From Thermoanaerobaculia bacterium (GTDB taxonomy: Bacteria; Acidobacteriota; Thermoanaerobaculia; Multivoradales; JAIOJS01), in the NCBI GenBank assembly GCA_019911795.1, contig JAIOJS010000425.1, positions 1 to 32,486 of the forward strand: a stretch of DNA of 32,486 nt, written 5' to 3'. The notes below the pieces were generated by a model. The model worked only from the letters and a program-made list of their open reading frames with translations, was not told the DNA's origin and did no database searches. The stretch's first letter is position 1. Each line of letters opens with the position of its first letter. Below, one piece after another: positions 2,873-28,818 of this stretch. Position numbers and translations under genes: made by a program.

Positions 2873-3541
2873 TCAGTTCGGATCCTGCCCGGCAACTTCG
2901 AAGATCACCAGATCGGACGCCACGGATCGGCCCGAATCCAGCTCAGCGAGCACCCGCCAATAGTGGACTCCAGCCTCCAGCGGCAAGGTCGCCGGCCAGG
3001 GTATGGCGGTGTTTGTGGCCTCGCCAGTCCACTCGAGTTCACCTTCGTCGTCGAGGAGCTGGACTCGATAGGAGCGAGCCTCGGCGACCGGCTTCCAGGA
3101 GAAGACTGGCTCCCCACTCACCGCACCGAGTGGACCCACGGGCACTACGGACTCGATGCGAGACGTCGAACGCCAGACAACTTCCTCGGGGGTTTCGGTC
3201 GTTTCGAGCGGACTAGACTGGGGCTGGGATACCAGAAGGAAGGCGCACCCCGCGGCCACAGCCGCGGCCGCAGAGAGCCAAACTCTGGGCCGGCTCCAGG
3301 CTCTTGTCCTGACGGCGTCTGGCAGGATCACCGCATCTGGTGCCATCGGGTCGACGTCGGAGGCCCCCGCCTCGACCGCGACCAGCACGCGGAAGATCTG
3401 TGCGCAGTCGGGGCAGAGACAAACGTGGTCCATGAGCGCTAGACGTTGCTCCGAGGAGTACTCCCCCATGGCGAGGCGCTCCCAGTCCTCATCGCTAGGG
3501 TGACTACCGCTCCGCGACACCGCCTCAACGTGAAGGGTCAT
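2873..3541 (-). CDS. Membrane anti-sigma factor with N-terminal zinc finger
   Basis: A 222-residue protein with a ZAS-type zinc motif H39-x3-C43-x2-C46 in an N-terminal cytoplasmic domain. One membrane segment lies at about residues 87-105. The C-terminal domain (about 135-215) is outside the membrane and looks like an Ig/fibronectin-III-type sandwich (FSWKPVAEARSYRVQLLD, then YWRVLAE). Such proteins bind and inhibit their partner ECF sigma factor until a signal releases it. The ATG overlaps the end of the sigma gene by 17 nt, with GAGG about 5 nt upstream, so the two are translationally coupled. The beta-sandwich outside the membrane suggests an envelope signal, but no ligand can be read from the sequence. 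Confidence 0.85.
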   Translation of the reverse strand: MTLHVEAVSRSGSHPSDEDWERLAMGEYSSEQRLALMDHVCLCPDCAQIFRVLVAVEAGASDVDPMAPDAVILPDAVRTRAWSRPRVWLSAAAAVAAGCAFLLVSQPQSSPLETTETPEEVVWRSTSRIESVVPVGPLGAVSGEPVFSWKPVAEARSYRVQLLDDEGELEWTGEATNTAIPWPATLPLEAGVHYWRVLAELDSGRSVASDLVIFEVAGQDPN

Positions 3542-12226: not shown

Positions 12227-14644
12227 TTAGAAGCTCGTCCCAACATCGAACTGGAAGGATTCAAAGCGGTCGCCCGGCTTTTCATCCAGATTACTCGCGT
12301 AGATGAATCGTAGCGGCAGGCCGAAGACTGGTACGAACATCCTCAGCTCGGCGCCGGCCGAGTAGCGGAAGCTGTCTCGCTCGTAGTCGACCCCGAGACT
12401 CGGGTCGAACACCCCACCGGCGTCGGCAAAGAAGACGACGCGGAAAGGTCCCCCGAGCAGCACATGGTACTCCAAACCGAGTTCGGCGAACTCGGTACCA
12501 CCGAGGATGTTTCCGAACTGGTCGCGAATCGCATTGCCGTTGTCATCGCGCAGGAAGAGAGACCGGTTGGCAAAGCCACGCACGCTCCTCGACCCTCCGA
12601 TGTAGTAGCGCTCGAGAAGGGGCAGATCCTGGTCGCCAAATGGCTTGAGGTAGCCGGTCTCGGCGTTGATCCCGACCACGGTGCGCACCGGCGCCCGAGT
12701 GACCGGGCGGTAGTAGGTGAAGCTCACTTCTGGGCGCCAGAACTCGACCTCGCCACCGAGGAAGCCACCCGCGTATTCGACCGAAGCGTCGAACCGCATG
12801 CCTCGGGTCGGCTCGATCCGGCTGTCCTGGCTATCGTAGAGCCAGGCCGGACGCAGGGTCGACTTACGGTATGAATCCGTGAAGGTATCGATGCCGCCCG
12901 TGGCATTGGTGCTCTCGATCCGCGAGCTCAGATCGGTCAGCGAATAGCTCGTGCGGAAAGAATGGAAGAGGCCGACGCTGCGACCGTAGGTCAGGACCAC
13001 ACCGGTCTGGTCCTGACGCTGTCGTTGGTCGATGAACCGGTAGTCGAACGAACGGTCGAAGATCTGGAAGCCCGCCGACTGGGGACGATCACGGATCCAC
13101 GGAATGAAGTAGGAGAAGTCGTAGCGATCGGAGGTGCCACCGGTCTGGACCGCCACCGAAAGTGTCTCTCCGCGGCCGAGGAAATTCTGGGTGCGGATCG
13201 AGAACTGTCCGAAAAAGCCATCCAGCTCGCTCCAGCCACCGCCAAAGAGCAGCTCGGTGCGGTCCGCCTCCTCGCCCTGAACGCGTAGGTCGACGGTGTG
13301 CTTCTCGGTATCGAAGTTCTCGAACTCGACCGGGTTGTCCTCGTCGAGTTTGAAGTAGCCCAGCTGATTCAGTTTGTAGAGGCTGCTGCGCAAGGCGCCC
13401 ATATTGAGAACGCGGCCCTCTTGGACTCGGAATTCACGCCGTAAGACGCGGTCGCGGGTCCTATCATTACCAGAGAATTCGAGGCGCCCTACCGTGTACT
13501 GGTCGGCCTCGGCGACGTGGATGAGGATGTTGGCGACGTTGTCCGCCGCCTCCTTGAGTTCGACATCGACGGTCGAGTAGATGTAGCCCGAGTTGCGATA
13601 CAGGTCGCCGATCGACTCGACGCCCTTGTCGATGGCCGACGCCTTCAGCCACTCGGTGCGCGGCCGGTCGAAGGCGCGCAATAGCAGTTCGTCTGAATAC
13701 ACCTCGTTGCCGTCGACCGAGATTTCACCGAACTTCCAGCGCTCTCCTTCGTCGATCGGGATGGTGAGGAACAGCCGCCGCTTCTGCTCTTTGACCGATG
13801 CCGCATCGGGTTTCAGAGCGCGGATCTCGAGTTCCGGTTCGCCGATGAGCAGGTTCTTGTAGCCCCGCTCCCGGTAGAGCTCGCGAACTCTCTCCATGTC
13901 CTCTTCGTAGGTCGCTGGGTTGTAGAGATCGCGCTTCAGCATCTTGCTGAACACCCCGGTAGGACGAGTCTTGCGCATGGCGAGGCTGAGCCGAAAATCC
14001 GAAAATACGGTATTGCCCTCGAAGTTGACGTCTTCGATCTTGACCTTGTCGCCTTCATCGACCGAGAACTGAACCCGTACCTCACCGACGTTCACCTTCT
14101 CGATGGTGTGACTCACTTCGGCGAAGCGGTAGCCCTTCTCGGCGTACATGTCCACGACGGCGCGCTCGAGTCGAACCAGTTCTCCCGTCTCCAGGGGCAA
14201 TCCCTCTCGGACCCGGATGCGATCTCGATCGACCCGGTCCTCGACGTCCGAACGGTTCAGCTTCTTCAATCCCTCGTAGTCGACGGACCTGAGCAGAGGA
14301 CGCTCTTTCAGGGTGATCTCGAGCACGATGCCGTCACCCTCGGAGTGCTCCGAGATCACCAGGTCATCGATCAGGCCGCGGTCCCACAGAGTGTGGATCC
14401 TGCGGTTCAACTCTAGGATATCGAGTGGCTGTCCGATCTCGAGACCTAGGTAGTAACTCACCGTCTCCGCCGAAAGCGAGGTCAAGCCCTCGTATTCGAC
14501 GCCTTTGATCACCGGCCCGCTAGTTGGCGGGGCAAGTTGCGCCACCGACGCTCCTGCCATGACCAAACACCAAAGGGCCATGCCCGCCACCCTTGTCGCC
14601 AGGGCGCCAATTCGGCCCTCGCACAGATTCCCATTGTCAGTCAT
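12227..14644 (-). CDS. bamA: Outer membrane protein assembly factor BamA
   Basis: 805 residues. A signal-like segment (about 13-36, MALWCLVMAGASVAQ) leads into five POTRA repeats (about 44-455; for example IEDVNFEGNTVFSD and VGRLEFSGNDRTRDRV). The C-terminal barrel runs from about 460 to the final Phe. The lid-loop signature is present as GGSRSVRGF (VRGF at 688-691). BamA inserts beta-barrel proteins into the outer membrane. The ATG at 14644 has only a weak Shine-Dalgarno; Met22 is an alternative that would shorten the signal's basic region. It heads the envelope cluster that continues into skp and lpxD. Confidence 0.95.
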   Translation of the reverse strand: MTDNGNLCEGRIGALATRVAGMALWCLVMAGASVAQLAPPTSGPVIKGVEYEGLTSLSAETVSYYLGLEIGQPLDILELNRRIHTLWDRGLIDDLVISEHSEGDGIVLEITLKERPLLRSVDYEGLKKLNRSDVEDRVDRDRIRVREGLPLETGELVRLERAVVDMYAEKGYRFAEVSHTIEKVNVGEVRVQFSVDEGDKVKIEDVNFEGNTVFSDFRLSLAMRKTRPTGVFSKMLKRDLYNPATYEEDMERVRELYRERGYKNLLIGEPELEIRALKPDAASVKEQKRRLFLTIPIDEGERWKFGEISVDGNEVYSDELLLRAFDRPRTEWLKASAIDKGVESIGDLYRNSGYIYSTVDVELKEAADNVANILIHVAEADQYTVGRLEFSGNDRTRDRVLRREFRVQEGRVLNMGALRSSLYKLNQLGYFKLDEDNPVEFENFDTEKHTVDLRVQGEEADRTELLFGGGWSELDGFFGQFSIRTQNFLGRGETLSVAVQTGGTSDRYDFSYFIPWIRDRPQSAGFQIFDRSFDYRFIDQRQRQDQTGVVLTYGRSVGLFHSFRTSYSLTDLSSRIESTNATGGIDTFTDSYRKSTLRPAWLYDSQDSRIEPTRGMRFDASVEYAGGFLGGEVEFWRPEVSFTYYRPVTRAPVRTVVGINAETGYLKPFGDQDLPLLERYYIGGSRSVRGFANRSLFLRDDNGNAIRDQFGNILGGTEFAELGLEYHVLLGGPFRVVFFADAGGVFDPSLGVDYERDSFRYSAGAELRMFVPVFGLPLRFIYASNLDEKPGDRFESFQFDVGTSF

Positions 14645-15005
14645 ACCAGTCTCAGTTCCATTTGTATTCTTGGGCAGCCGAAGGATCCTCGGCGCGATTC
14701 CGGGCGGGCCGGACGCCCAAATATACCCTCAGTACGGCGGGAGCGCCATCGGGGTTCGATGGACGACCACGACGAGCACCCCTTGGACTCCCGCCGGAGC
14801 GCGGGATTAGTCAGCAAGAGCCGGGCCACCCGCCCGCCGCAGCGATCGATCCCGATAGCCTACGAACGGGCGGAGACCGTGATCTCTCGACAAGACGATG
14901 TCCCGGCGAGACTGGATTCTAGCGAAACTTGGTCCTGGCGAAACTTGGTCCTGGCGAGACTTGGTCCTGCTGCACCATCACACGGCGATAGAACTCGGCT
15001 GGGGA
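14645..15005. other. 361-bp intergenic region between clpC and bamA
   Basis: No gene is supported here. On the bamA side, the minus-strand hexamer TATATT (14720-14725) with a poor -35 (TGGCGC, 17-bp spacer) is a weak candidate promoter about 75 nt before the ATG. CCATC/GATGG (14746-14762) makes a small hairpin. The clpC side holds a four-copy 16-bp tandem repeat, listed separately. Confidence 0.5.
14905..14968. repeat. 16-bp tandem repeat, four copies, downstream of clpC
   Basis: Units start at 14905, 14921, 14937 and 14953. The last three are nearly identical (consensus GGCGAAACTTGGTCCT); the first matches at 13 of 16 positions. The array begins 38 nt past the clpC stop. The 16-nt period does not preserve a reading frame. 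It is too short, and has no spacers, to be a CRISPR. Confidence 0.85.
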
Positions 15006-17528
15006 CTAGGGCTCGGCGAGAACCTCCGACTCCGACTCGGCCGTCCCTGACTCGGGTTCCGAGTCAGATCCTGAATCCGCTGCCCGATCGTCCTCCGCAG
15101 CGCTCTCCAACCGCTTCGACTTCGAGAACTCGCTGACCCTGAGATCCAGGCCTTCGGCACCACGGTCGACCTCGATGCGGACAATGGTCTCACTGCGACG
15201 CGAGATAAGAATCTCGGAGACAGCGTCCTGCACATAACGCTGAATCGTCCTACGGAGAGGGCGGGCACCGGTCGAGGGTTCGATACCAGCCTGCTCCAAC
15301 AGCCAGTCCTTCGCGACCTCTGAGACACCGACACTCAGGCCTCGCTCCGCCAGAGTCTCGTTGACGTCCTCGAGGAGAATATCGACGATCGACCGCAGGG
15401 AAGCGGCCGACAGCGGCTTGAACACGATGACCTCGTCGAGGCGATTGATGAATTCGGGACTGAACTGACGTTGGAGTTCGCCGAGAATCTCCTCCTCCAG
15501 GAAGCGGAAGTTCTCGTCTTCACTACCGTCCCCGAAACCCATCCGACCCTTGTGCAGGACCAACTTGCTGCCGACATTCGACGTCATCAGCACGATAGCG
15601 TTGCGGAAGTCGACGCGGTTGCCGTAGCTATCGGTGAGCACTCCGTCATCGAGGATCTGGAGCAGCAGGTTCGAAACGTCGGGGTGTGCCTTCTCGATCT
15701 CGTCGAACAGGACGAGAGAGTAGGGCTGGCGGCGGATCCGCTCGTTGAGCTGTCCTCCCTCCTCGTGCCCAACGTATCCCGGTGGGGACCCGATCAGCTT
15801 CGACACGGCATGCTTCTCCATGTACTCACTCATGTCGAAACGCACCAGCGACTCCTGAGAACCAAAGAGGAAGGACGCGAGTTGGCGAGCGACCTCCGTC
15901 TTGCCAACGCCCGAGGGGCCAAGGAAGATGAACGATCCCACCGGACGCCGAGGGTTGCTGACCCCGAGACGAGAACGTCGAATGGCCCGGCTCATCGCCG
16001 CGATCGCCTGGTCCTGTCCGACGATCCGGCGACGGAGGATCGCTTCCATGTCCATCAACCGCTCTGCCTCTTCGGCTTCGAGACTGGCGACCGGGACCCC
16101 CGTCCAGGACGCAATGACGTCCTCGACGTCCTCGGTCGTCACCAGCAGCCGGCCCGATTCCTCGGCGGTGCGGGTGAGGCGTTCGAGGTCCTCGCGGAGT
16201 TCGATCTCCCTCTCGCGGAGGAACACCGCACGCTCGAAGTCCTTCTCCGAGATGCCGCGCTTCATGTCCTGCACGACTTCCTGGATCTCACGTTCCAAGC
16301 GGCGAATGTGCTGCGTGTCACGGACCCGGCGCAGCTTGACCTTGGCCCCGGCCTCGTCGATGACATCGATCGCCTTGTCGGGCTGGTGCCGATCTGTGAT
16401 GTAGCGCGAGGACTGCAGGATGGCGACTCTCAGCGCCTCGGTGCTGTAGCGCACCTTGTGGAAAGTCTCGTAGCGCTCGCGAAGTCCCTCGAGAATCTCC
16501 AGCGTCTCCTCTTCGTCGGGAGGCTCGACCTTGACCGACTGAAAGCGCCGCATCAGCGAGCGATCGCGTTCGATGTACTTGCGATACTCCTTGAGGGTGG
16601 TAGCGCCGATACAGGAGATCTCACCGCGGGAGAGAGCGGGTTTCAGAATATTGGCAGCGTCCAGCGACCCCTCGGCGGAACCGGCCCCCACCAGCGAGTG
16701 GATCTCGTCGATGAAGACGATGACGTCGGGACTGCCCTGTAGCTCGGTGAGAATCCCTTTGAGACGCTCCTCGAATTGACCGCGGTACTTGGTTCCGGCC
16801 ACGATGAGCGAGAGATCGAGGGCGACCAGACGCTTGGTGGCGAGCGACATCGGTACCTTGCCCTCGACTACCCGCTGGGCCAAGCCTTCGACGATCGCGG
16901 TCTTACCCACCCCTGGTTCGCCGAGCAGGATCGGGTTGTTCTTCGTCCGCCGAGAGAGGATCTGGACGATTCGCTCCAGCTCGCTGTCGCGACCGATCAG
17001 CGGGTCAAAGGCGCTCTGAGTCGCGAGAGCGGTCAGGTCCCGGCCGTACTCGGCGAGGAAGGGAAGGTCCTTCTTCTGCTGCGAGGCCTCACGTTCCTTG
17101 GAGATACGTGTCAGTTCTTCTCGCACACTGTAGAGGTCGAGTCCCTGCTGCGTGAGGATGCGCATAGCCAGAGATCCTTCGACCCGCAGCAGCCCGACCA
17201 ACAGATGTTCCGAGCCGACCGACTGACTCATCATGCTCTCCGCCTCGTGCGAAGCGTAGGCGAGAATCTTCTTCGATTCTTCGGAGAGCGGCAGCTCGGC
17301 GGTCGAGGAAATGCGGTCGACGAATACCCGCTCGCCTTCGATCTCGCGGCGCACATCTTCGGGCTTCACGCCGAAGTGGCGAAGGAGCTCGCTGACGGTT
17401 TCCTCTCCTTCTCTCAGGATTCCGAGGAGCACATGCTCGGACTCGATCACTCGGCTCCCCAACTTACTCGCCTCGTAGCGAGCGAAGAAGAGAGCTCGTC
17501 GCGCCTTCTCATTATACTTCTCGAACAT
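15006..17528 (-). CDS. clpC: ClpC-type ATP-dependent protease ATPase subunit
   Basis: 840 residues. A double Clp N-domain (1-140) is followed by AAA module 1 with Walker A GEPGVGKT (203-210) and Walker B VFIDE (271-275). A UVR-containing middle region (about 410-450) separates it from AAA module 2, with Walker A GPSGVGKT (537-544) and Walker B LVLFDE (605-610). The ClpP-docking loop is present as MGF (663-665), so it should feed ClpP, which is not encoded here. The last 35 residues are an unusual acidic Ser/Glu/Asp-rich tail. GGAGGG precedes the ATG. It lies 24 nt after lolD on the same strand. Confidence 0.94.
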
Positions 17529-17552
17529 ACTTGATCGACCCTCCCTGCGCGA

Positions 17553-18263
17553 TCAGCGCCGTCCCGAGTCCGCAGAGTCCAAGCGGCTGGATTCGCCGAG
17601 CAGACCCTCATCCAGCAACAAAACTCTACCACACCGGTCTGCGATCTCCGGGTTATGGGTAACCAGTACCATGGTCGTTCCATGCCGTGAAGCCATGGAC
17701 CGCAAGAGCTCGAAGACGTGATCTCCCGTCTCCGGATCCAGGTTCCCAGTTGGCTCGTCTGCCAGCAGTAGTGGCGGTTCGAGAAGAAGAGCTCGACAAA
17801 GCGCCACGCGTTGCCGTTCACCTCCCGAGAGCTCGGATGGGTAGTGATCCTGGCGCTGTTTCAGTCCCACTTCGGCCATGAGTTCCTCCGCCCGTTGTCG
17901 TATCCAGTCGAACGGTCGCCCTGCGATGCGCCCCGGCAACATGACGTTCTCCAAGGCATCGAAATCCGGGAGGAGTTGGTGAAACTGAAACACGAAGCCC
18001 ACTTGCAGGTTGCGAAACCGAGCCAGAGCGCGACCGTCCAGACGGGCGACTTCCTGTCCCCCGACGGTCACCTCGCCCTCGTCTGGTACATCGAGTCCGC
18101 CGAGGATATGGAGTAGGGTCGATTTGCCCGACCCCGATGGGCCAACAATCGCAATGCGCTCTCCCGGCTGGATCGAAAGGTCGATGCCGCGCAGCACCTC
18201 CACCCGACGTCCGGCGTCGACGAAAGTCTTGACGACGCCTCTGGCCTCGACTCCAACGCTCAT
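17553..18263 (-). CDS. lolD: Lipoprotein-releasing ABC transporter ATPase LolD
   Basis: 236 residues from the chosen ATG. It powers extraction of lipoproteins from the inner membrane. Walker A GPSGSGKS (41-48), Q-loop Gln93, signature LSGGE (145-149) and Walker B LLLADEP (165-171) are intact. VFQFHQLLPDF is typical of the LolD/MacB branch. The frame is open 56 codons upstream, but the ATG at 18263 overlaps the permease stop as ATGA and starts the conserved region. It pairs with the permease immediately before it. Confidence 0.92.
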   Translation of the reverse strand: MSVGVEARGVVKTFVDAGRRVEVLRGIDLSIQPGERIAIVGPSGSGKSTLLHILGGLDVPDEGEVTVGGQEVARLDGRALARFRNLQVGFVFQFHQLLPDFDALENVMLPGRIAGRPFDWIRQRAEELMAEVGLKQRQDHYPSELSGGERQRVALCRALLLEPPLLLADEPTGNLDPETGDHVFELLRSMASRHGTTMVLVTHNPEIADRCGRVLLLDEGLLGESSRLDSADSGRR

Positions 18264-19525
18264 CGCCGCAGTGCCTCCACCGGCGGCGCTTGCCCCACAC
18301 GCTGAGCGACGAAGTAGCAGCTCGCCCAGGCCAACACCATGGTCAAGCCGAGAACGGAGACGAGATCTGACGACTGAACGTGGAACGGGAGGTACTCGAG
18401 AAAGTACACGCGGTCCGGCAATCGCACCCACTGCTGAGCATCCAGGATCCAGGCCAACCCGCCTCCCAGGACGCCACCAACCAGAGCCCCAGCTCCCGCC
18501 AGCATGCCGCCCAGGAGGAGGAACGCCCAGCGCAGCTGACGCGGTTCGGCTCCCATCGCTCCGAGCATACCGATCTCGGTGCGCTTGTTGGTGATGAGGA
18601 GAGCGAGGTCGGCGACCAGAGCCAGAGCGGCCACGAGAATGATCAGCGAGACCGCGACAAACATGACGGTCTTCTCCAATCTAAGGGCGAAGAAGAGAGG
18701 TCGATTGAGTTCCTTCCAGGTACGAAGAGTCGAGCGCGGCGGCAAGAGTGCACGGACCGGTTCGACCAAGGCCGTGGCTGCTTCCAGGCTCCCGGTTGTC
18801 ACGACGATCGAAGAGCGTCCAGTGGCCGTCAGCGTCCGCGCCATGTCGATCGGCAGGGCGAGTCGTTCGACTTCCTCGGTGCGTCCGCTCTCGAAGGTGC
18901 CGATGAGCGGAAGACTCCTCACCCGGGGCTGAGGCCCGAGGGGACCCAGAGTCGGTAGCGGCGAGATCACCTCGAGCTGGTCACCGACCTGCAGACCCCA
19001 TCGCGTGGCCATATCAGCCCCGATGTAGAGCCCCTCGACCGTTCCTCCGGCGCCGGGAAAGAACGACGGAAGATCGCCGGAGAAGCCGAGTATCTCCGCC
19101 GGCTGCACCAGTCCGCCGCTACGCAGCCAGCCCCGCCCGCGAACGATCTCCTGGACCCTCACCACGCCGTCGAGTCCCTCGAGGCGCTCGCGAACAGCGG
19201 CGACGTCAGCGCCGACCGGCAGTTCGATCTCCAGGTGGGGCGTCCGCTCAAGCACCTCGGAGCGGAGCGCATCCTGAAGTCCAGCCAAGGCGGCCAAGGC
19301 CAGGACCAGCGCCGCCACCCCGAGCGCGATACCTCCGGCGGCGACCGACGAGAGAAAGTTGACGAACGCGTCGCGACGGGCGCTGCGCAAGAACCGCAGC
19401 GCCAGCAACGCCGGGAGAGGCAGTTTCCAGGGCCAGATCGTCAGCCGACTACTCCGTCCTGGGAAGTGCTGCCCATCTCGGTCACTGATCCTCGGGACTG
19501 GAGTCGCTCTCGGAGCCCGGATCAC
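18260..19525 (-). CDS. LolC/LolE-family lipoprotein-releasing permease
   Basis: Up to 421 residues. A first membrane helix (about 56-84) precedes a large periplasmic MacB-type domain, then three C-terminal helices. The FtsX-family motif KRTEIGMLGAMGAEPRQL follows the second helix. Only one permease gene is present, so the complex may be a LolF-like homodimer or the partner may lie elsewhere. The ATG at 19525 makes a 44-nt overlap with lysS. A CTG at 19444, preceded by GGACGGAG, would begin nearer the family's usual N-terminus, so the start is uncertain. The gene is coupled to lolD by ATGA. Confidence 0.87.
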   Translation of the reverse strand: MIRAPRATPVPRISDRDGQHFPGRSSRLTIWPWKLPLPALLALRFLRSARRDAFVNFLSSVAAGGIALGVAALVLALAALAGLQDALRSEVLERTPHLEIELPVGADVAAVRERLEGLDGVVRVQEIVRGRGWLRSGGLVQPAEILGFSGDLPSFFPGAGGTVEGLYIGADMATRWGLQVGDQLEVISPLPTLGPLGPQPRVRSLPLIGTFESGRTEEVERLALPIDMARTLTATGRSSIVVTTGSLEAATALVEPVRALLPPRSTLRTWKELNRPLFFALRLEKTVMFVAVSLIILVAALALVADLALLITNKRTEIGMLGAMGAEPRQLRWAFLLLGGMLAGAGALVGGVLGGGLAWILDAQQWVRLPDRVYFLEYLPFHVQSSDLVSVLGLTMVLAWASCYFVAQRVGQAPPVEALRR

Positions 19526-21059
19526 CGTCGGCAGTGGACCCCTCGCCGGGAGGTTCCGCCTCCGAGGTTTCGTCCCGCGGCGCCACGGGGCGCATAAGGG
19601 GAAAGAGGATGACGTCGCGAATCGACTGTCGGTCCGCGAAGAGCATGGTCAGTCGATCGATACCGATCCCCTCACCGCCGGCCGGAGGCATGCCCATCTC
19701 CAACGCCTCGATGTAGTCCGCGTCGAAGCCGTGGGCCTCGACGTCTCCGGCGTCGCGAGCCGCGAGCTGCTCGCGAAAGCGGTCCGCCTGCAACCGCGGG
19801 TCGTTGAGCTCGCTGAAAGCGTTGGCCACCTCCATACCGCCGATAAAGAGTTCGAATCGCTCGACAAAACGTGGATCATCCTCGCGCTGCTTCGACAGAG
19901 GCGAGATGTCGACCGGGTAGTCCACGATGAAGGTCGGCTGCACGAGGTGACGCTCCACCGTTTCATCGAAAAGGGCCATCAACAGGTGACCGTACGAGCG
20001 CGTGGCCGGCAGGTCGATCGATCGCGCCTTCAACTCAGCCTCGACGTCTTCGATCGTCTCGAGTCGTTCGGCCACGATACCCGCAAAGTGGGTGATCGCC
20101 TCCCGCACACTGTAGCGGCGCCACGGGCGGGTCAGGTCGAGGCGCTCGCCGTTCCAGCGTAGTCCGGAGTCGTCCAGCAGGCGCTCCTCCAAGTGGCAGA
20201 AGAGTTCCTCCGTCAACTGGATGAGAGCCTCGTAGTCGACAAAGGCCCAGTAGAACTCGAGCATGGTGAACTCGGGGTTGTGTTGGGTCGAGATCCCCTC
20301 GTTGCGGAAGTTGCGATTGATCTCGTAGACCCGATGGAAGCCCCCCACCGTCAACCGCTTGAGGAAGAGCTCGGGCGCGATGCGCAGGTAGAGTTCGAGG
20401 TCGAGGGCGTTGTGGTGCGTCGCGAACGGCTTGGCCGCCGCCCCCCCCGCCATCAGGTGCATCATCGGGGTCTCGACCTCGAGGAACCCGCGGTCGTCGA
20501 GGAAGCGTCGGATCTCGCGCACCAGGCGCGAACGAAGCTCGAACACCCTTCTCGACTCCTCGTTGACCATCAGGTCGAGATAACGCTTGCGGTAGCGGAC
20601 CTCCACATCGGTCAGGCCATGCCACTTCTCCGGCAGCGGGCGCTGCGCCTTGGCGAGGAGTACGAGATCCTGCAGCAGTAGGGAGAGTTCCCCCGCCCGG
20701 GTACGCATGACGACGCCGCGAGCGCCGACCACATCACCGAGGTCGAGGCGGTCGAGCAGGGCCAAGACCTCGTCCGACATCTGCGGCCGTCGGACAAAGA
20801 GTTGCAGCTTGTCGTCGCCCTCTCCAAGATCGATGAACTGGACCTTACCGTGGCCCCGAATCGCGCGCACTCGCCCGGGGACCCGCACCACCGTCGCCGC
20901 GGCGTCGAGCGCATCGCCATCGAGATGCCCGAAGCGGCGGTGAATCTCCGGAGGCTCGCCGTCGTGATCGAAGGAGTGCGGGAAGGCCTGGACCCCCAAC
21001 TCGACCAGTTCGTCGAGCTTGCGACGGCGGTTAAGGATCTGTTCGTTGAGTTCGGACAT
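19482..21059 (-). CDS. lysS: Lysyl-tRNA synthetase, class II
   Basis: 525 residues. An N-terminal OB-fold anticodon domain (about 55-140) is followed by a class II catalytic core. Motif 2 has FRNEGISTQHNPEFTMLE (251-268) and motif 3 has GGEGIGIDRLTML (461-473). The protein continues past the usual LFPLMRP end with about 33 acidic Ser/Glu/Asp/Pro-rich residues (493-525). The DNA coding part of this tail also carries the possible start of the next gene. AGGAG lies about 8 nt before the ATG. lysS followed by lolC/lolD occurs in several diderm lineages. Confidence 0.95.
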   Translation of the reverse strand: MSELNEQILNRRRKLDELVELGVQAFPHSFDHDGEPPEIHRRFGHLDGDALDAAATVVRVPGRVRAIRGHGKVQFIDLGEGDDKLQLFVRRPQMSDEVLALLDRLDLGDVVGARGVVMRTRAGELSLLLQDLVLLAKAQRPLPEKWHGLTDVEVRYRKRYLDLMVNEESRRVFELRSRLVREIRRFLDDRGFLEVETPMMHLMAGGAAAKPFATHHNALDLELYLRIAPELFLKRLTVGGFHRVYEINRNFRNEGISTQHNPEFTMLEFYWAFVDYEALIQLTEELFCHLEERLLDDSGLRWNGERLDLTRPWRRYSVREAITHFAGIVAERLETIEDVEAELKARSIDLPATRSYGHLLMALFDETVERHLVQPTFIVDYPVDISPLSKQREDDPRFVERFELFIGGMEVANAFSELNDPRLQADRFREQLAARDAGDVEAHGFDADYIEALEMGMPPAGGEGIGIDRLTMLFADRQSIRDVILFPLMRPVAPRDETSEAEPPGEGSTADGDPGSESDSSPEDQ

Positions 21060-24995: not shown

Positions 24996-25847
24996 TCAGG
25001 ACTCGGCGATCGGATCCTCCGGATCTGCGGTCCGTCCGCGCAGCATGCGTACCGACGAGTGGGCGAGGAGGATGAGTCCAAGGGTACAGACCACCGCCGG
25101 GCCACTTGGAAAATCCCAATGGTACGAAGCCCCCAATCCCACCGCGGTGGCCGCACCCCCCACGAGCCACGCGATGAGGATTCTCACCGGCCAACGCGAA
25201 CTGGTTCGAAGCGCGATGATGGCTGGGGTTACGAGGTAGGCAAAGACCATCAAGACACCGGCGATCTCCACCGCCAGGGTCACCACGAGCGCGAAGGTCG
25301 CGTAGAACACGAAGTCCCAGCGTTTCAATCCCAGTCCCTGACGGGCCGCCTCCGCAGGCTGCTCCGAGATCGCAATGAGCTGACGTCGCACCGCAAAGTG
25401 GACGGCGCCGACCGCCGCCACTACCAACAGGTTGCGAATCACCGTGGGCCAGGTGACCCACACGATGGCGCCCGCGAGCATCTCCTTGATGTGCTCAGCC
25501 CCCTCCGGAGCTCGATCCGCGAGGAGAATGCCGAAAGCAGAGGCGATCACGTAGGTGATCCCGATGATCGCCTCCTGGGGAACACGTCCCTTGTCGTTGC
25601 GCGTGACGCTAAAGATGAGCGCCCCGAGGAGAGCCGCGCCTAGAGAGAAGCCGAAAGCAGCCGGACTCCCCGGTTCGTGATGGAAGAGGAACGCCACCAG
25701 GGTTCCGACCGCCGCGATCTGAGCCAGGGCGAGGTCGACGAAGACGACGCCGCGCAAGAGGACGTGGAGGCCCAGGTATCCGAGAATCGCAACGAGCACG
25801 AGACAAGCGAACAAGGGCGCCGCCATGAAGACCAGGGCATCGGTCAC
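24996..25847 (-). CDS. ABC-3 family metal (zinc/manganese) transporter permease
   Basis: 283 residues, strongly hydrophobic, with seven to nine predicted membrane helices. The ABC-3 family pattern is visible: GYLGLHVLLRGVVFVDLALAQ near the N-terminus, GITYVIASAFGILLADRAPEG in the middle, and EIAGVLMVFAYLVTPA near residue 200. It would pass the metal delivered by the binding protein across the inner membrane. The GTG start overlaps the binding-protein stop as GTGA. The usual ATPase gene (znuC-like) is not adjacent; the downstream neighbour is ridA on the other strand. Zinc or manganese cannot be told apart from this gene alone. Confidence 0.88.
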   Translation of the reverse strand: MTDALVFMAAPLFACLVLVAILGYLGLHVLLRGVVFVDLALAQIAAVGTLVAFLFHHEPGSPAAFGFSLGAALLGALIFSVTRNDKGRVPQEAIIGITYVIASAFGILLADRAPEGAEHIKEMLAGAIVWVTWPTVIRNLLVVAAVGAVHFAVRRQLIAISEQPAEAARQGLGLKRWDFVFYATFALVVTLAVEIAGVLMVFAYLVTPAIIALRTSSRWPVRILIAWLVGGAATAVGLGASYHWDFPSGPAVVCTLGLILLAHSSVRMLRGRTADPEDPIAES

Positions 25848-26893
25848 GGCGTCCGCCTTCCGCTCGGGGCTTCACTCACTGCATCGGCAAGGCCGCCGAC
25901 CCAGGCATCGACCAGGGCAAAGTAGTCCTTGATGGCACCACCGGTCTGCAGCGGAGCGATCACCACCCTCGCGCCGGTCCGATCAGCGATCTGAGCCGGC
26001 TTCCGCGGATCGAAGTAGTCGGCGCTAAGGACCAGCGGGACCTTGTTCTCTTGCATCGTTTCGATCAGCTCTTTGACGTGGCGTGCCGAGGGTGGGATGC
26101 CCGGTTTGGGTTCGACGTAACCCACGACGTCGAGACCGAGTAAGTCGACGAGGTAAACCCAGTTCTTGTGGTAGGTGACGATCTTCTGCCCTCGGAGCGA
26201 ACGGGCGCGACCGAGCCATCCGCCGAGGCGGCCGATCAGCGGACGCCCCTCGAGTTCCTTGGAGCCGAGGAAATCGATCAGCTGTCCGCTGCGAGCCAGT
26301 GGGTCCAGAACCTCGGCGCCGAGGAGGGTCACCAACTCCTTTCCATAGAGGGCGACATCAATGCGGTGCTGGAAGTCGGCCAAGCGGCGACGGTAGTCCT
26401 CGGCCCCCGAGGGATCGACCCGCTCCAGTCCCGCCGCAATATTGGCCGCGATGATCTTGACGTTGAGTGGACTGGTGTGCAGGTGAGGATTGCCATAGGC
26501 GTGCACGTCCCCACCCTCGCGACTGGTGCTGCCCGGCACATCGAGCAGGGGGACATTCTGGCTGGCGGAAACAAAACCCGGCTGCCCGTCCCGAATGGAG
26601 CGGTTTCCTGACTTGTCGACCAACACCGGCGCCCACAGTTCCAGGTCGAGACCCGTCGTCACAAAGACGTCGGCATCCCTCAGCATCAGAGCGAATGAGG
26701 GCTTCGGCTTGACGAAGTGAGCGTCCTCTCGCGGTTCCGAGATCGCTTCCACCGTCACCCGATCACCACCGATCTCCTGGGCGACGGAGGCGAAGACGGG
26801 CAGGGTTGTGACCACTCGAACGGTTTCCCCGAGCAAAGGGGAGGTCCAGACAGCGGCAAAGAACAGGGTCATTGAAGTCATCCGTCGTAACAT
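25844..26893 (-). CDS. ZnuA-type periplasmic metal-binding protein
   Basis: 349 residues from the chosen ATG. A signal peptide (about 1-23, MTLFFAAVWTSPLLGE) precedes the cluster A-I fold. The expected ligands are present: His in EDAHFVKPKPS (59), His in GNPHLHTSP (137), His in TYHKNW (242), and an Asp in SADYFDP (292 or 295). Three His plus Asp suits Zn or Mn. The acidic/His-rich loop of many ZnuA proteins is lacking, although DVHAYGNPHLH is a short His cluster. The ATG at 26893 follows GAGGAG at 6 nt. An earlier ATG at 26926 overlaps the porin and has no site. Confidence 0.9.
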   Translation of the reverse strand: MLRRMTSMTLFFAAVWTSPLLGETVRVVTTLPVFASVAQEIGGDRVTVEAISEPREDAHFVKPKPSFALMLRDADVFVTTGLDLELWAPVLVDKSGNRSIRDGQPGFVSASQNVPLLDVPGSTSREGGDVHAYGNPHLHTSPLNVKIIAANIAAGLERVDPSGAEDYRRRLADFQHRIDVALYGKELVTLLGAEVLDPLARSGQLIDFLGSKELEGRPLIGRLGGWLGRARSLRGQKIVTYHKNWVYLVDLLGLDVVGYVEPKPGIPPSARHVKELIETMQENKVPLVLSADYFDPRKPAQIADRTGARVVIAPLQTGGAIKDYFALVDAWVGGLADAVSEAPSGRRTP

Positions 26894-26915
26894 CGTCATC
26901 TCCTCTCGAATACGC

Positions 26916-28343
26916 TTAGTAGGCATCGTGCTTGTGAGGGCCGGCCGCCCACGTCAACTGCAATGTGAAACGATTCTCCGCTCCCTCGCGGAACTCGGAG
27001 TCGAGGTATTGGTAGGCGGCCCGGAGCCGAACGTATTCGCTCTGCCACCACGAGAGATAAGGCTCGACTGCCCAGGTCTTGGCGTCGGGCGAGAAGGGAT
27101 CCTCCAGCCAGTCGTAGCGCACTCCGGCGTACAGATTGCGACGGAGAAGTCCCTCGAGGTAGGTATATCCACCCATGGCCTCTTGGGTGAGACCCAATTC
27201 GTCATCCCGTTGGGAGAGCAACAGCTCGCTACGCCAAGTTAGCTCCCGGTACTTGCCACGACCGGGTGGCTGCCAGTGCAGGGTGACGTCGGTGCCCCAG
27301 ATTCGCGTGTCGCGATCCTCGGTCGGACGACCGACGACTCCCGACAATCCCCACTCGAGGTAGGTGCTGGGCGAGAGGTCCCAGTAGTTCTTGAGATGTC
27401 CAAGAACAACCAGATCCTCGAAATCCTCTCCGCCAAAGGGTTCCGCGGACCCATCGGTCACTTGGAGGGTGATCTCGTTGGCACTGGCCCAACCCCGCGG
27501 CAGGAGCCAGCTCGCCGACAAACCCGTTTGGGCTAGCCCCTCTTCGCCGAAGTAGGAAGCCAGTACCAGCGGGTAGTCGACCTGGGGAAGCGCATGGAGG
27601 TGGGTCCGGTTCAGGGCGCCAAACGTCTGTCGCATCTTCCCCGCCCGCAGTTCCAAACCAGGAGCCAGCCCGGCGTAGCGGATGTACCCCTCCTCGATCT
27701 CCACCCCCTCTTCCGAGAAGGCCAAGGTCCACTTGGTGGACGAATAGGGATCCAGCGACGCCTGCAGGTCGAGTTCGAACTCGCGGGCGACAAAGCTCTG
27801 GTGTCCAGACTCGACCAGGGCAAGGATGTCGCCAGTGAATGAGATCTCCGGGTTTAGGGCGCTGAGGTTGCGTTCCCGTCCGGATGTCGCACCCGCCGTG
27901 GGCGGCGACGGCCCAACCGCGACCATGGCCTCGGCGCTCGCGGTTGCGGCGGCTCTTCGAAGAGCGGCCAACTCGTCCTCTACCGTCTGCTCCTCGGCTC
28001 CTCCCTCGCTCTCAGAGAGCCGATGCTCGAGTTCTACGACGCGATCCTCCAGCGCCCGAATGCGTTCCTCGTAGAGACTTCGTAAGGCATCGATCTGTGC
28101 CTGAAGATCATCACTCTCACCGCTCGTGCCGTCCACCCCAACCGCCTTCTCATCGACGGCCTCTCCGGCATTCGCTCCGACCCATCCAGCCGCTCCGACC
28201 GGCCAAGCGGTCAACCACAGTCCGATCCCCACCACCACTAGGCTAGGCAGTCCGATCGTTCGATTCTCTCGCTTCCAACTTCTCGCCCGAACGCCGTCCA
28301 TACGGACATCCGAGACACCGCAATTCCTTCGAATACGCTCCAT
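26916..28343 (-). CDS. Coiled-coil outer-membrane porin, metal-uptake cluster
   Basis: 475 residues from the chosen ATG, which follows GGGAGGG. A long basic N-terminus leads to a signal helix (about 31-51). A coiled coil follows (about 79-132, ALRSLYEERIRALEDRVVEL), then a beta-barrel of alternating aromatic strands (about 160-475) that opens with LNPEISFTGDILALVESGH and ends in Tyr. The trimer-forming coiled coil plus barrel resembles phosphate-selective OprP-like porins. It lies 22 nt before the binding protein, so it probably admits the metal, or a metal complex, through the outer membrane. The protein ends HKHDAY, an unusual His-bearing C-terminus. Function is inferred from context. Confidence 0.78.
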   Translation of the reverse strand: MERIRRNCGVSDVRMDGVRARSWKRENRTIGLPSLVVVGIGLWLTAWPVGAAGWVGANAGEAVDEKAVGVDGTSGESDDLQAQIDALRSLYEERIRALEDRVVELEHRLSESEGGAEEQTVEDELAALRRAAATASAEAMVAVGPSPPTAGATSGRERNLSALNPEISFTGDILALVESGHQSFVAREFELDLQASLDPYSSTKWTLAFSEEGVEIEEGYIRYAGLAPGLELRAGKMRQTFGALNRTHLHALPQVDYPLVLASYFGEEGLAQTGLSASWLLPRGWASANEITLQVTDGSAEPFGGEDFEDLVVLGHLKNYWDLSPSTYLEWGLSGVVGRPTEDRDTRIWGTDVTLHWQPPGRGKYRELTWRSELLLSQRDDELGLTQEAMGGYTYLEGLLRRNLYAGVRYDWLEDPFSPDAKTWAVEPYLSWWQSEYVRLRAAYQYLDSEFREGAENRFTLQLTWAAGPHKHDAY

Positions 28344-28422
28344 CGTGGACCCTCCCTGGGTTCTCACTCACTGATTCATCCTCGACGCAGGGCAATACCC
28401 CTCCGTCTACTTAACGAGGCGA

Positions 28423-28818
28423 TCAGGCGATGGGAGGGCCGCGAGCGGGTTCGAGAAGCTCATCGGCGGACAAAGGCGGCGTCCGCAGGCTGTCGGCGAC
28501 GAGGTCCTGGAACCAATCTCGAGGGGCACCGGCGATGAGGGCGAGATCCGCCCCCGACCGGGCGTGCGAGAGGCAACCGGGACATGTCGAGGCGGAGCCC
28601 GGTTCCGCCAACTCGAAGCTGGGCGGATGATCGAGTCCGCAGTCGCTGACCATGGTCTCGACCTGAACCGACTCGTCGTGCAGGGTCCCGCCGTGCTGCT
28701 CGGTTAGACCGGGGAGCAGAAGAGCCACCGTTGCCAGAAGGGCAACGGCTGGTCTGCACCAAACCGCGGATCTAAGCCACCCGCGGAGTCGTCTGGATTC
28801 AGTCTCTACCATAGGCAT
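28423..28818 (-). CDS. Small secreted Cys/His protein, DUF2946-like
   Basis: 131 residues from the ATG at 28818; TTG 28821 and ATG 28812 are alternatives, and no strong Shine-Dalgarno decides. A basic N-terminus and a hydrophobic helix (about 22-40) look like a signal peptide or anchor. The mature part carries HGGTLHDE, a CPGC pair in TCPGCLSH, and a C-terminal ARGPPIA. A CxxC-type pair and an RGPP end are typical of small DUF2946-like proteins found in copper and zinc gene clusters. It sits about 80 nt before the porin and shares its direction. A role in metal sensing or delivery is inference. Confidence 0.6.
   Translation of the reverse strand: MPMVETESRRLRGWLRSAVWCRPAVALLATVALLLPGLTEQHGGTLHDESVQVETMVSDCGLDHPPSFELAEPGSASTCPGCLSHARSGADLALIAGAPRDWFQDLVADSLRTPPLSADELLEPARGPPIA

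Follow-up and report, generated by a model that had tools for sequence, protein, structure and literature searches.

A conserved cassette of probable leader ORF, porin, binding protein and ABC-3 permease in Acidobacteriota, mostly without an ATPase gene: a possible leader-controlled route of metal import

How could an ABC-type metal importer work when no ATPase gene accompanies it? The question is raised by four genes in the window, i.e., the whole stretch of 32,486 nucleotides from a Thermoanaerobaculia bacterium analysed here (Table 1). Their order, a small Cys/His ORF followed by a porin, a binding protein and a permease gene, all on the minus strand, and the missing ATPase were pointed out in an earlier note, and both hold. 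The only ABC ATPase detected by profile search in the window was considered as a partner and rejected: it is LolD-like, adjoins a LolC/E-like gene and lies 6.4 kb away. The answer proposed here, to which we assign a probability of about 50%, is a metal import cassette controlled by its leader, with a permease that works without a dedicated ATPase. What the sequences themselves support is the cassette and its spread, the lack of an ATPase in 68 of 73 loci, the better match of other classes to the 24 ATPase ORFs of one single-contig genome, and, for the leader, its motifs and a codon signature. Neither an intrinsic terminator nor a sigma-70 promoter was found between positions 28100 and 29100, and no Rfam family between 24500 and 29500.

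Table 1. Features of the cassette in the window (positions in the window).
Feature	Position	Strand	Remarks
CruR/CutF-like leader ORF (uORF), 131 aa, putative	28423..28818	-	ATG at 28818; hydrophobic N-terminal segment, CPGC, RGPP
CPGC motif codons (residues 79-82)	28573..28584	-	presumed metal sensor, by analogy with CruR (PMC9426467)
RGPP codons CGC GGC CCT CCC (residues 126-129)	28432..28443	-	presumed arrest motif
CCCTCCC	28432-28438	-	complementary to the porin Shine-Dalgarno
Porin Shine-Dalgarno GGGAGGG	28350..28356	-	predicted to pair with the uORF 3' end
Outer-membrane porin	26916..28343	-	coiled coil and 16-strand barrel (predicted); C terminus GPHKHDAY; start chosen by the analyst from its Shine-Dalgarno
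Periplasmic metal-binding protein, ZnuA fold (PF01297)	25844..26926	-	putative start codon
ABC-3 permease (PF00950)	24996..25847	-	no ATPase in the cassette

The comparison covered 73 loci: the one in the window, 12 earlier ones and 60 picked, mostly for contig room, from 105 matching genomes. Three loci cut by contig ends (L081, L084 and L089) and two that share their contigs with L079 and L082 (L045 and L046) were omitted, and the weaker matches L022-L031 (20 to 47 bits) were taken as other solute-binding proteins (SBPs), with an ATPase adjoining and no porin in sight. The 73 loci are non-duplicate, yet close relatives such as L133/L134 and L130/L131 are not independent. According to a script, the order and strand of the porin-SBP-permease trio are kept in 72 of the 73 loci, the exception, L160, being due solely to an additional SBP that lies upstream; the median gaps between the profile matches within the trio are 28 and 32 nt. 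An ATPase is present within the trio in five loci (L175 and L177-L180). The 60 phylum-wide loci were chosen by the SBP alone and every one of them has a porin match, which supports the suggestion of the earlier note that a porin is joined to the importer as a dedicated route. The neighbours vary, no flanking gene family common to the loci having been found, and a search for a conserved fifth gene with a home-made gene caller gave no family in more than three loci, apart from ABC ATPases of various kinds, which flank eight loci on one side or the other. The gene set is thus kept in many Acidobacteriota and is not an accident of one contig, and the reality of the conserved cassette is practically beyond doubt. 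L044 and L047 are records labelled Armatimonadetes and Binatota. Among plasmids the SBP of the window had only matches below 60% identity (24-28% among the 15 matches listed), and a 1-kb stretch of L154 had no DNA match.

The binding protein matches PF01297 (ZnuA) with 158 bits against a curated cut-off of 29, and its nearest solved chains are iron/manganese and zinc SBPs; its residues 192-232 have no counterpart in the family's short form. In SBPs of cluster A-I the metal ligands are three histidines plus a carboxylate, and a three-His-plus-Asp site had been read from the window. The histidines stand, since His70, His148 and His253, together with an additional one, His142, are invariant across the SBPs of the 68 ATPase-less loci, that of the window among them; an Asp ligand is not supported, as beyond residue 272 no position has Asp or Glu in 90% or more of the same set. 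The porin, described earlier as a coiled-coil protein, is indeed modelled by AlphaFold as an N-terminal coiled coil followed by 16 strands (mean pLDDT 73.8, below 50 for residues 1-81). OmpT heads its Foldseek matches, with OprP and OprO in rows 2-4; no Pfam family exceeds its cut-off, Porin_O_P (PF07396) scoring 13.2 against 20.9 bits. His256, His258 and His478 (numbering of the 483-aa form) are present in 73, 72 and 73 of 73 relatives.

The permease of the window matches PF00950 (ABC-3) with 107 bits against a curated cut-off of 20.1, and the top Foldseek match of its fold is PsaBC of S. pneumoniae (TM 0.77). The ATPase-less permeases share polar residues of their own: H28 is found in 67, D38 in 68, E118 in 68 and H150 in 65 of 68 (one being cut by a contig end), as compared with 0, 0, 2 and 0 of the five ATPase-bearing permeases and none of ten canonical ABC-3 permeases at any of the four positions. 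W177-D178 is also specific to the ATPase-less group, and a His present in 10/10 canonical permeases is Gln in 68/68 ATPase-less ones. Most of the latter keep a loop resembling the L-loop of BtuC (A167 in 57/68, G171 in 61/68), as if a partner still docked there; this equivalence rests on weak hhalign matches and on two short helices predicted at residues 154-162 and 164-169, and the letters of the BtuC L-loop presumably correspond to those of the FecCD loops to which they were matched. L181 and L183 have lost the loop altogether and L176 its A...G motif, and in L145 and L158 it is shortened.

The strongest rival explanation is an ordinary ABC importer that borrows its ATPase in trans, of the Mnt type, the FecE type or another class, as several Bacillus subtilis importers share YusV, which a table of PMC11466899 pairs with at least two permease sets. 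The earlier note took the ATPase to be necessarily shared or located elsewhere, and had proposed a search of the rest of the genome. In the genome of the window, contig C320 carries a Mnt-type ATPase together with two ABC-3 permeases, and C314 another SBP; an ATPase encoded elsewhere may serve here, and in the genomes whose ATPases were scored by profile search. As a rule the statement is not supported, on two counts. The cassette permease is the only PF00950 match in 16 of the 24 cassette genomes searched, and in the genome G049 (a single contig of 2.4 Mb, 95% complete, with masked stretches) none of the ABC ATPases found is of a fitting class. Its 25 PF00005 matches lie in 24 ORFs, whose best NCBIfam models, many of them matched below their curated cut-offs, are LptB, ProV, MsbA and related exporters, LolD/MacB, OppF/DppD, FtsE, PotA, MlaF, GldA/DrrA, ABC-F, SufC, TagH and CcmA; a ZnuC, MntB, AztA or FecE-type model tops none of the 24. 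Since these ORFs match other classes best, an ATPase elsewhere fails as an explanation in G049.

ATPases were named in G049 only, those of the other genomes being scored by profile search. In eight of the 16 genomes with a sole permease (G050, G002, G162, G066, G132, G109, G323 and G025) the best ATPase reaches 178-207 bits; the one of G049 reaches 149 bits in the same search. The high-scoring ATPase of G162 adjoins the FecCD permease of L150, and the remaining ones, unplaced, could serve in trans. The profile (A3) includes the C320 ATPase and three of the five in-cassette ATPases, the scores of which are therefore high by construction. It cannot exclude divergent ATPases, as the in-cassette ATPases of G284 and G207 (170 and 162 bits) score level with the best of G206, G251, G252 and G275 (164-169 bits). 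In L138, L140 and L150 an ATPase lies just upstream of the leader; it was rejected as the ZnuC of the cassette because it stands behind a FecCD-like permease (classes read by eye), and the same ATPase would suit borrowing of the FecE kind. Borrowing in trans is also in keeping with the coupling-type loop retained by most permeases; against it stand, besides G049 and the sole permeases, the group-specific polar residues and the five permeases with an altered loop. On balance, we regard borrowing as a possible explanation with somewhat less than even odds, and give a permease working without a dedicated ATPase an even chance. The dedicated outer-to-inner membrane metal import set without an ATPase of its own, as originally described, is supported.

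The small ORF heading the set had been described as a secreted CxxC/His protein. Its position and the CPGC motif are confirmed; in place of a secreted part of the transport route, its ending, RGPP followed by two residues and the stop, 43 residues after CPGC, favours a regulatory leader. A search allowing a spacing of 20-80 residues and up to 20 residues after R.PP returned a much narrower pattern (C..C, 41-47 residues, R.PP, 1-10 residues, stop) ahead of the porin in 61 of the 73 loci, with a spacing of 43-44 in 44 of the 61. The pattern occurs in 61 of 219 ORFs near the porin, compared with 2 of 9,414 other ORFs. Among the 12 loci with no leader matching the pattern, L139 and L181 have little sequence before the porin (3 and 215 bases), L145 has an upstream ORF with a RAPP ending and no CXXC, and the other nine include both G236 and G251 relatives. 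DUF2946 (PF11162) matches 15 of 52 leaders, with a best E of 0.0015 and two scores of 12.8 and 10.3 against a gathering threshold of 23.7; the leader of the window has no Pfam match, this family included, at E up to 1. It has nonetheless the traits of the CruR type, i.e., CXXC, a spacing near 45 residues, a RAPP-like motif by the stop and the place of first ORF in a putative operon; in CruR the spacing between the cysteine motif and the RAPP-type motif is given as 45 (PMC9426467, available text). Judged by these motifs, the small ORF is very probably a regulatory leader, an arrest peptide of the CruR/CutF kind.

The codons of the arrest motif carry a signature of their own. CCT serves as the first Pro codon in 32 of the 61 leaders, with 6.0 expected from a background of 9.7% (P 5e-19 if the loci were independent). 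In the window the porin Shine-Dalgarno (SD) is predicted to pair with the 3' end of the uORF with a probability of 0.88-1.00 in all 40 fold windows, and with CCCTCCC itself with 0.26-1.00 (below 0.5 in four of the 40); the pairing falls to 0.43-0.44 once the stretch under the stalled ribosome is removed. With a z of -1.2, the folded leader end of the window has no exceptional stability. Over 57 loci SD accessibility is 0.17 in the free RNA and 0.35 with the stalled part removed, and the excess over shuffled leader ends is positive in 39 of the 57 (mean 0.056, Wilcoxon p 0.003). SD-to-PP pairing of at least 0.5 is predicted in only 15 of 54 loci, all 15 with CCT, which is partly built in because CCTCC is the SD complement. 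The CCT bias suggests that the arrest motif can act as a protein stall and an RNA switch together.

We infer stalling, a response to metal and the sense of that response, transport and the direction it takes, and ATP independence. The leader would act during its own synthesis, the ribosome stalling at RGPP near the C terminus, and the CXXC motif and histidines of the nascent chain would sense the metal and so alter the stall. The stalled ribosome would cover CCCTCCC, which otherwise masks the porin SD; with the SD freed, the porin and the genes behind it would be translated, and once the stall is relieved, in the metal-replete state as with CruR, the stem would close and import be turned down. 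Metal would then be admitted across the outer membrane by the His-marked 16-strand porin, captured by the ZnuA-fold protein at its His-rich site and moved into the cytoplasm by the ABC-3 permease, in a facilitated or ion-driven manner, with the binding protein as a feeder and with use of the group-specific His, Asp and Glu residues. That the cassette imports metal is probable. More tentatively, the system may be a former ABC importer that has shed its ATPase and is now ATP-independent and SBP-fed, marked by H28/D38/E118/H150, a porin of its own and an arrest peptide with anti-Shine-Dalgarno Pro codons.

Which metal is carried is a separate matter. Zinc, sensed by the leader as well as imported, would suit the ZnuA fold and the nearest solved chains, and zinc SBPs bind through three histidines. 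DUF2946 genes are moreover among those that a zur mutant of Caulobacter expresses at altered levels, as far as the available text of PMC4176598 goes. Copper is pointed to by the leader: most CutF-like leaders that bear Cys motifs stand at the head of copper operons (PMC9973294, available part), and CruR responds to copper (PMC9426467, likewise). Copper is accordingly favoured by a little, zinc is rather unlikely, and any other metal is improbable.

Could the small protein be instead a working secreted metal chaperone and no leader at all? A hydrophobic N-terminal segment is found in most leaders, all 60 leaders read (of the 61) have a His within 45 residues before CXXC, and H47 and H64 are nearly invariant in the 52 that were aligned. 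In the same alignment only C79, C82, R126, P128 and P129 are invariant and the mean column identity is 15%; this, the fixed spacing between the cysteines and R.PP and the CCT bias at the first Pro make a chaperone a distinctly poor explanation. A decayed operon that has lost its ATPase and is on its way out, for which the existence of ATPase-bearing forms might speak, was already disfavoured and is scarcely credible given the shared invariant residues and a tree that places 67 ATPase-less permeases in one group by a single change (weak support, 71/69, with midpoint root and long branches).

With ZnuABC, PsaBCA and MntABC of cluster A-I the cassette shares a ZnuA-type SBP and an ABC-3 permease; it differs from them in lacking the ATPase, in the change of the canonical His to Gln and in H28, D38, E118 and H150, which are new here. 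SBP-fed import is known from TRAP transporters, the membrane parts of which, as far as the sources at hand describe them, belong to another family and include no metal ABC-3 permease. ATPase-free import is also known from solitary BioY and CbiMN, neither of which is a metal ABC-3 permease. ABC importers are taken to need an ATPase, and a widespread lineage with the permease and the binding protein, but with no ATPase of a fitting class in at least one single-contig genome, opens ATP-free import through an ABC fold to a direct test; the cassette would also extend the range of arrest-peptide leaders to ABC-type metal importers of Acidobacteriota.

The closest parallel to the leader is CruR-bfrG of Bordetella pertussis as presented in the available text of PMC9426467: a short leader with predicted export heads an outer-membrane import operon and has CXXC and, at a fixed distance from it and close to the stop, a RAPP-like motif. 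There, the leader is a DUF2946 protein, the next genes encode a TonB-dependent transporter and a membrane protein, and regulation uses Rho-dependent termination, while here the leader of the window has no match to that family, a porin, an SBP and an ABC-3 permease follow, and SD masking is predicted. The terms ABC transporter and zinc do not occur in the main texts of PMC9426467, PMC9973294 and PMC12992588, nor does the term porin in those of the last two. CutF of cutFOG in Rhodobacter capsulatus, as available in PMC9973294, likewise carries a Pro motif at its C-terminal end, and a stem in the mRNA covers the ribosome-binding site of the following gene; copper there favours synthesis of the multicopper oxidase CutO, whereas the cargo here is an import set, and unlike in CutF it is the Pro codons that are predicted to act as the anti-SD. 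For the window, all 40 fold windows predict such a CutF-like stem over the ribosome-binding site, the picture over 54-57 loci being mixed.

The genes in the table form the minus-strand set described in the earlier note, in the order given there; they lie on contig C266 of a source genome of 5.4 Mb (606 contigs, 94% complete) and are flanked by housekeeping genes (HGPRTase, Rid family, GntG-type aldolase). At 12227-21059 of the window a LolD-like ATPase adjoins a LolC/E-like permease, in the same run as lysyl-tRNA synthetase, ClpA/B-type and BamA-type genes.

Genes of the cassette in the window
Gene	Position	Strand	Remark
Small ORF (putative leader)	28423-28818	-	First of four in reading order
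Porin	26916-28343	-	Start with the best Shine-Dalgarno
ZnuA-type binding protein	25844-26926	-	Third in reading order
ABC-3 permease	24996-25847	-	Fourth in reading order

A profile of the binding protein (SBP) matched 105 of 396 Acidobacteriota genomes (E ≤1e-25), and 73 non-duplicate loci were assembled from the window, 60 of these genomes and 12 earlier loci. Porin, SBP and permease profiles were all matched in every one of the 73 loci, the median distances from match to match being 28 and 32 nt, and a script found the trio in this order on a single strand in 72; the exception, L160, has an extra SBP upstream of an ordered trio. The neighbours of the cassette vary between loci. In a named collection, eight of 11 related loci bear the label Acidobacteriota, Acidobacteria or Thermoanaerobaculia. 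The four-gene set is a cassette and not a fragment.

The small ORF of the window, previously taken for a secreted protein, consists of CPGC, 43 residues, RGPP, two residues and a stop codon, and by its sequence is read here as a leader instead. An ORF of this pattern lies immediately upstream of the porin in 61/73 loci; the pattern occurs in 61 of 219 ORFs near the porin versus two of 9,414 other ORFs of the same loci, one of those two resembling a genuine second leader. In L148 another leader-like CXXC...RAPP ORF is located at a distance from the cassette (3051-3428, minus strand). Among the 12 loci without the pattern, hardly any sequence precedes the porin in two, a third carries RAPP but no CXXC, and in the remaining nine no leader was seen. 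The CXXC-to-motif spacing, 41-47 residues and mostly 43-44, agrees with the 45 residues between CXXC and RAPP in CruR of Bordetella pertussis, in which expression is reported to require RAPP and the copper response CXXC (PMC9426467). CutF-like leaders and RAPP/RGPP peptides are described as widespread (PMC9973294, PMC12992588). In 52 aligned leaders five columns are invariant and H47 and H64 nearly so, with a mean identity of 15%; such low conservation outside the motifs is expected of a peptide working inside the ribosome.

CCT encodes the first proline of the motif in 32 of 61 leaders, while 6.0 are expected from the 9.7% CCT among prolines of the cassette genes (P 5e-19; P 1e-13 against the 12.9% elsewhere in the leaders; loci treated as independent in both). 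The complement of the Shine-Dalgarno (SD) sequence is CCTCC, and in the window GGGAGGG (28350-28356), the SD of the porin, is complementary to CCCTCCC (28432-28438). Over 40 fold windows this SD is predicted to pair with the leader 3' end with a probability of 0.88-1.00 and with CCCTCCC itself with 0.26-1.00 (below 0.5 in four); when the part that a stalled ribosome would cover is taken out, the probability that the SD is paired at all is 0.43-0.44. The stability of the leader-end fold is ordinary (z -1.2). Across 57 loci the same removal raises mean SD accessibility from 0.17 to 0.35, a rise exceeding that of shuffled leader ends in 39 (p 0.003, a modest effect). Strong pairing of the SD with the proline codons is predicted in 15/54 loci, all 15 with CCT.

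Leader-controlled import is the simplest account of the cassette: a ribosome stalled on the leader would leave the SD open, so that porin, SBP and permease are made, and sensing of the metal would relieve the stall and let the stem close over the SD. That metal relieves the stall is borrowed from CruR, control by CutF of Rhodobacter capsulatus being of the opposite sign, and the identity of the metal would likewise follow by analogy. In the SBPs H70, H142, H148 and H253 are invariant in 68 sequences, D140 is present in all and E272 in 99%, the nearest solved chains being YfeA, ZnuA and similar metal-binding proteins; the porins have H256 and H478 in 73/73 and H258 in 72/73, and end in GPHKHxxY (22), GAHGAHPF (20), another GxHxxHx(F/Y) form (26) or otherwise (5). 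These histidine patterns are consistent with the handling of a His-loving metal. Taken singly, the parts resemble known CruR/CutF leaders, 16-strand porins, cluster A-I binding proteins and ABC-3 permeases; the portions of the open-access literature searched showed neither such a combination, nor a cassette stably without its ATPase, nor an anti-SD formed by proline codons.

The cluster had been noted to lack an ATPase, which holds for 68/73 cassettes, that of the window included; five (L175, L177-L180) have one within the trio. The strongest rival to an ATP-independent permease is an ATPase borrowed in trans, as the earlier note supposed. By eye, L138, L140 and L150 have an ATPase upstream of the porin behind a FecCD-like permease, the pair immediately preceding the leader, in the same orientation, with no obvious binding protein between. 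On contig C320 the window's genome has a Mnt-type ATPase accompanied by two ABC-3 permeases, both permeases apparently carrying C-terminal MntR/DtxR-like regulator domains (L090, by eye). Orthologues of this ATPase match at 1e-136 or better, and family f2 cassette genomes such as G002, G018 and G025 have nothing close (no match or ~1e-31). In the one-contig genome G049, whose cassette (L174) has a leader, the 25 PF00005 matches are distributed over 24 ORFs, assigned by best NCBIfam model, many with scores below the curated cut-offs, to lipid, lipoprotein, peptide, osmolyte, polyamine, phospholipid, polysaccharide, ABC-2, multidrug-type, cell-division, FeS-assembly, cytochrome-assembly and ABC-F classes; an ABC-3- or FecE-type model is the best match of none. 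The supposition of an ATPase shared or encoded elsewhere is thus not supported in G049, while the other cassette genomes may have a fitting one.

The cassette permease is the sole PF00950 match in 16 of 24 cassette genomes (E ≤0.001). With an ATPase profile run on 32 genomes, ATPases adjoining ABC-3 permeases score 214 bits or more, but two in-cassette ATPases score 170 and 162. The best ATPase of the sole-permease genomes scores 149-169 bits in seven (G049 149, G236 155, G156 160, G206 164, G275 166, G251 167, G252 169) and 178-207 in eight, of which one, that of G162, was placed: it is the ATPase upstream of L150. For G294 an E value of 1e-41 is listed without a bit score.

An ATP-independent permease is suggested mainly by the ATPases of G049 and by permease residues, compared between 68 ATPase-less permeases, five ATPase-bearing ones and 10 canonical homologues. 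H28 (67/68), D38 (68/68) and H150 (65/68) of the ATPase-less set occur in none of the five or the 10, and E118 (68/68) in two of the five and none of the 10; a His of all 10 canonical permeases is Gln in 68/68 and 5/5. As predicted (mean pLDDT 87.9), the permease structure has matches in the PsaBC permease (TM 0.77) and in BtuC-like permeases. A loop equated, through a weak alignment, with the BtuC L-loop, which lies between TM6 and TM7 (PMC5117765), is retained in most ATPase-less permeases; L181 and L183 have lost it, in L145 and L158 it is shorter, and in L176 it lacks its A...G motif. As evidence the permease changes are mixed: the new residues and the losses in the loop favour a permease that manages without an ATPase, and the retained loop argues against it. 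A tree places 67 ATPase-less permeases in a single, weakly supported group (71/69).

By eye, the permease ORF at L084:1-1562 (G024 contig C28; 520 aa, still open where the contig ends) continues in frame into coiled-coil, porin-like sequence, as would result from a fusion of an inner-membrane permease with an outer-membrane porin or from read-through between them. The cassette permeases at L083:9799-11229 and L044:9088-10581 appear, also by eye, to be extended at the C terminus by ~200 residues that include His-containing stretches and a repeat-like domain.
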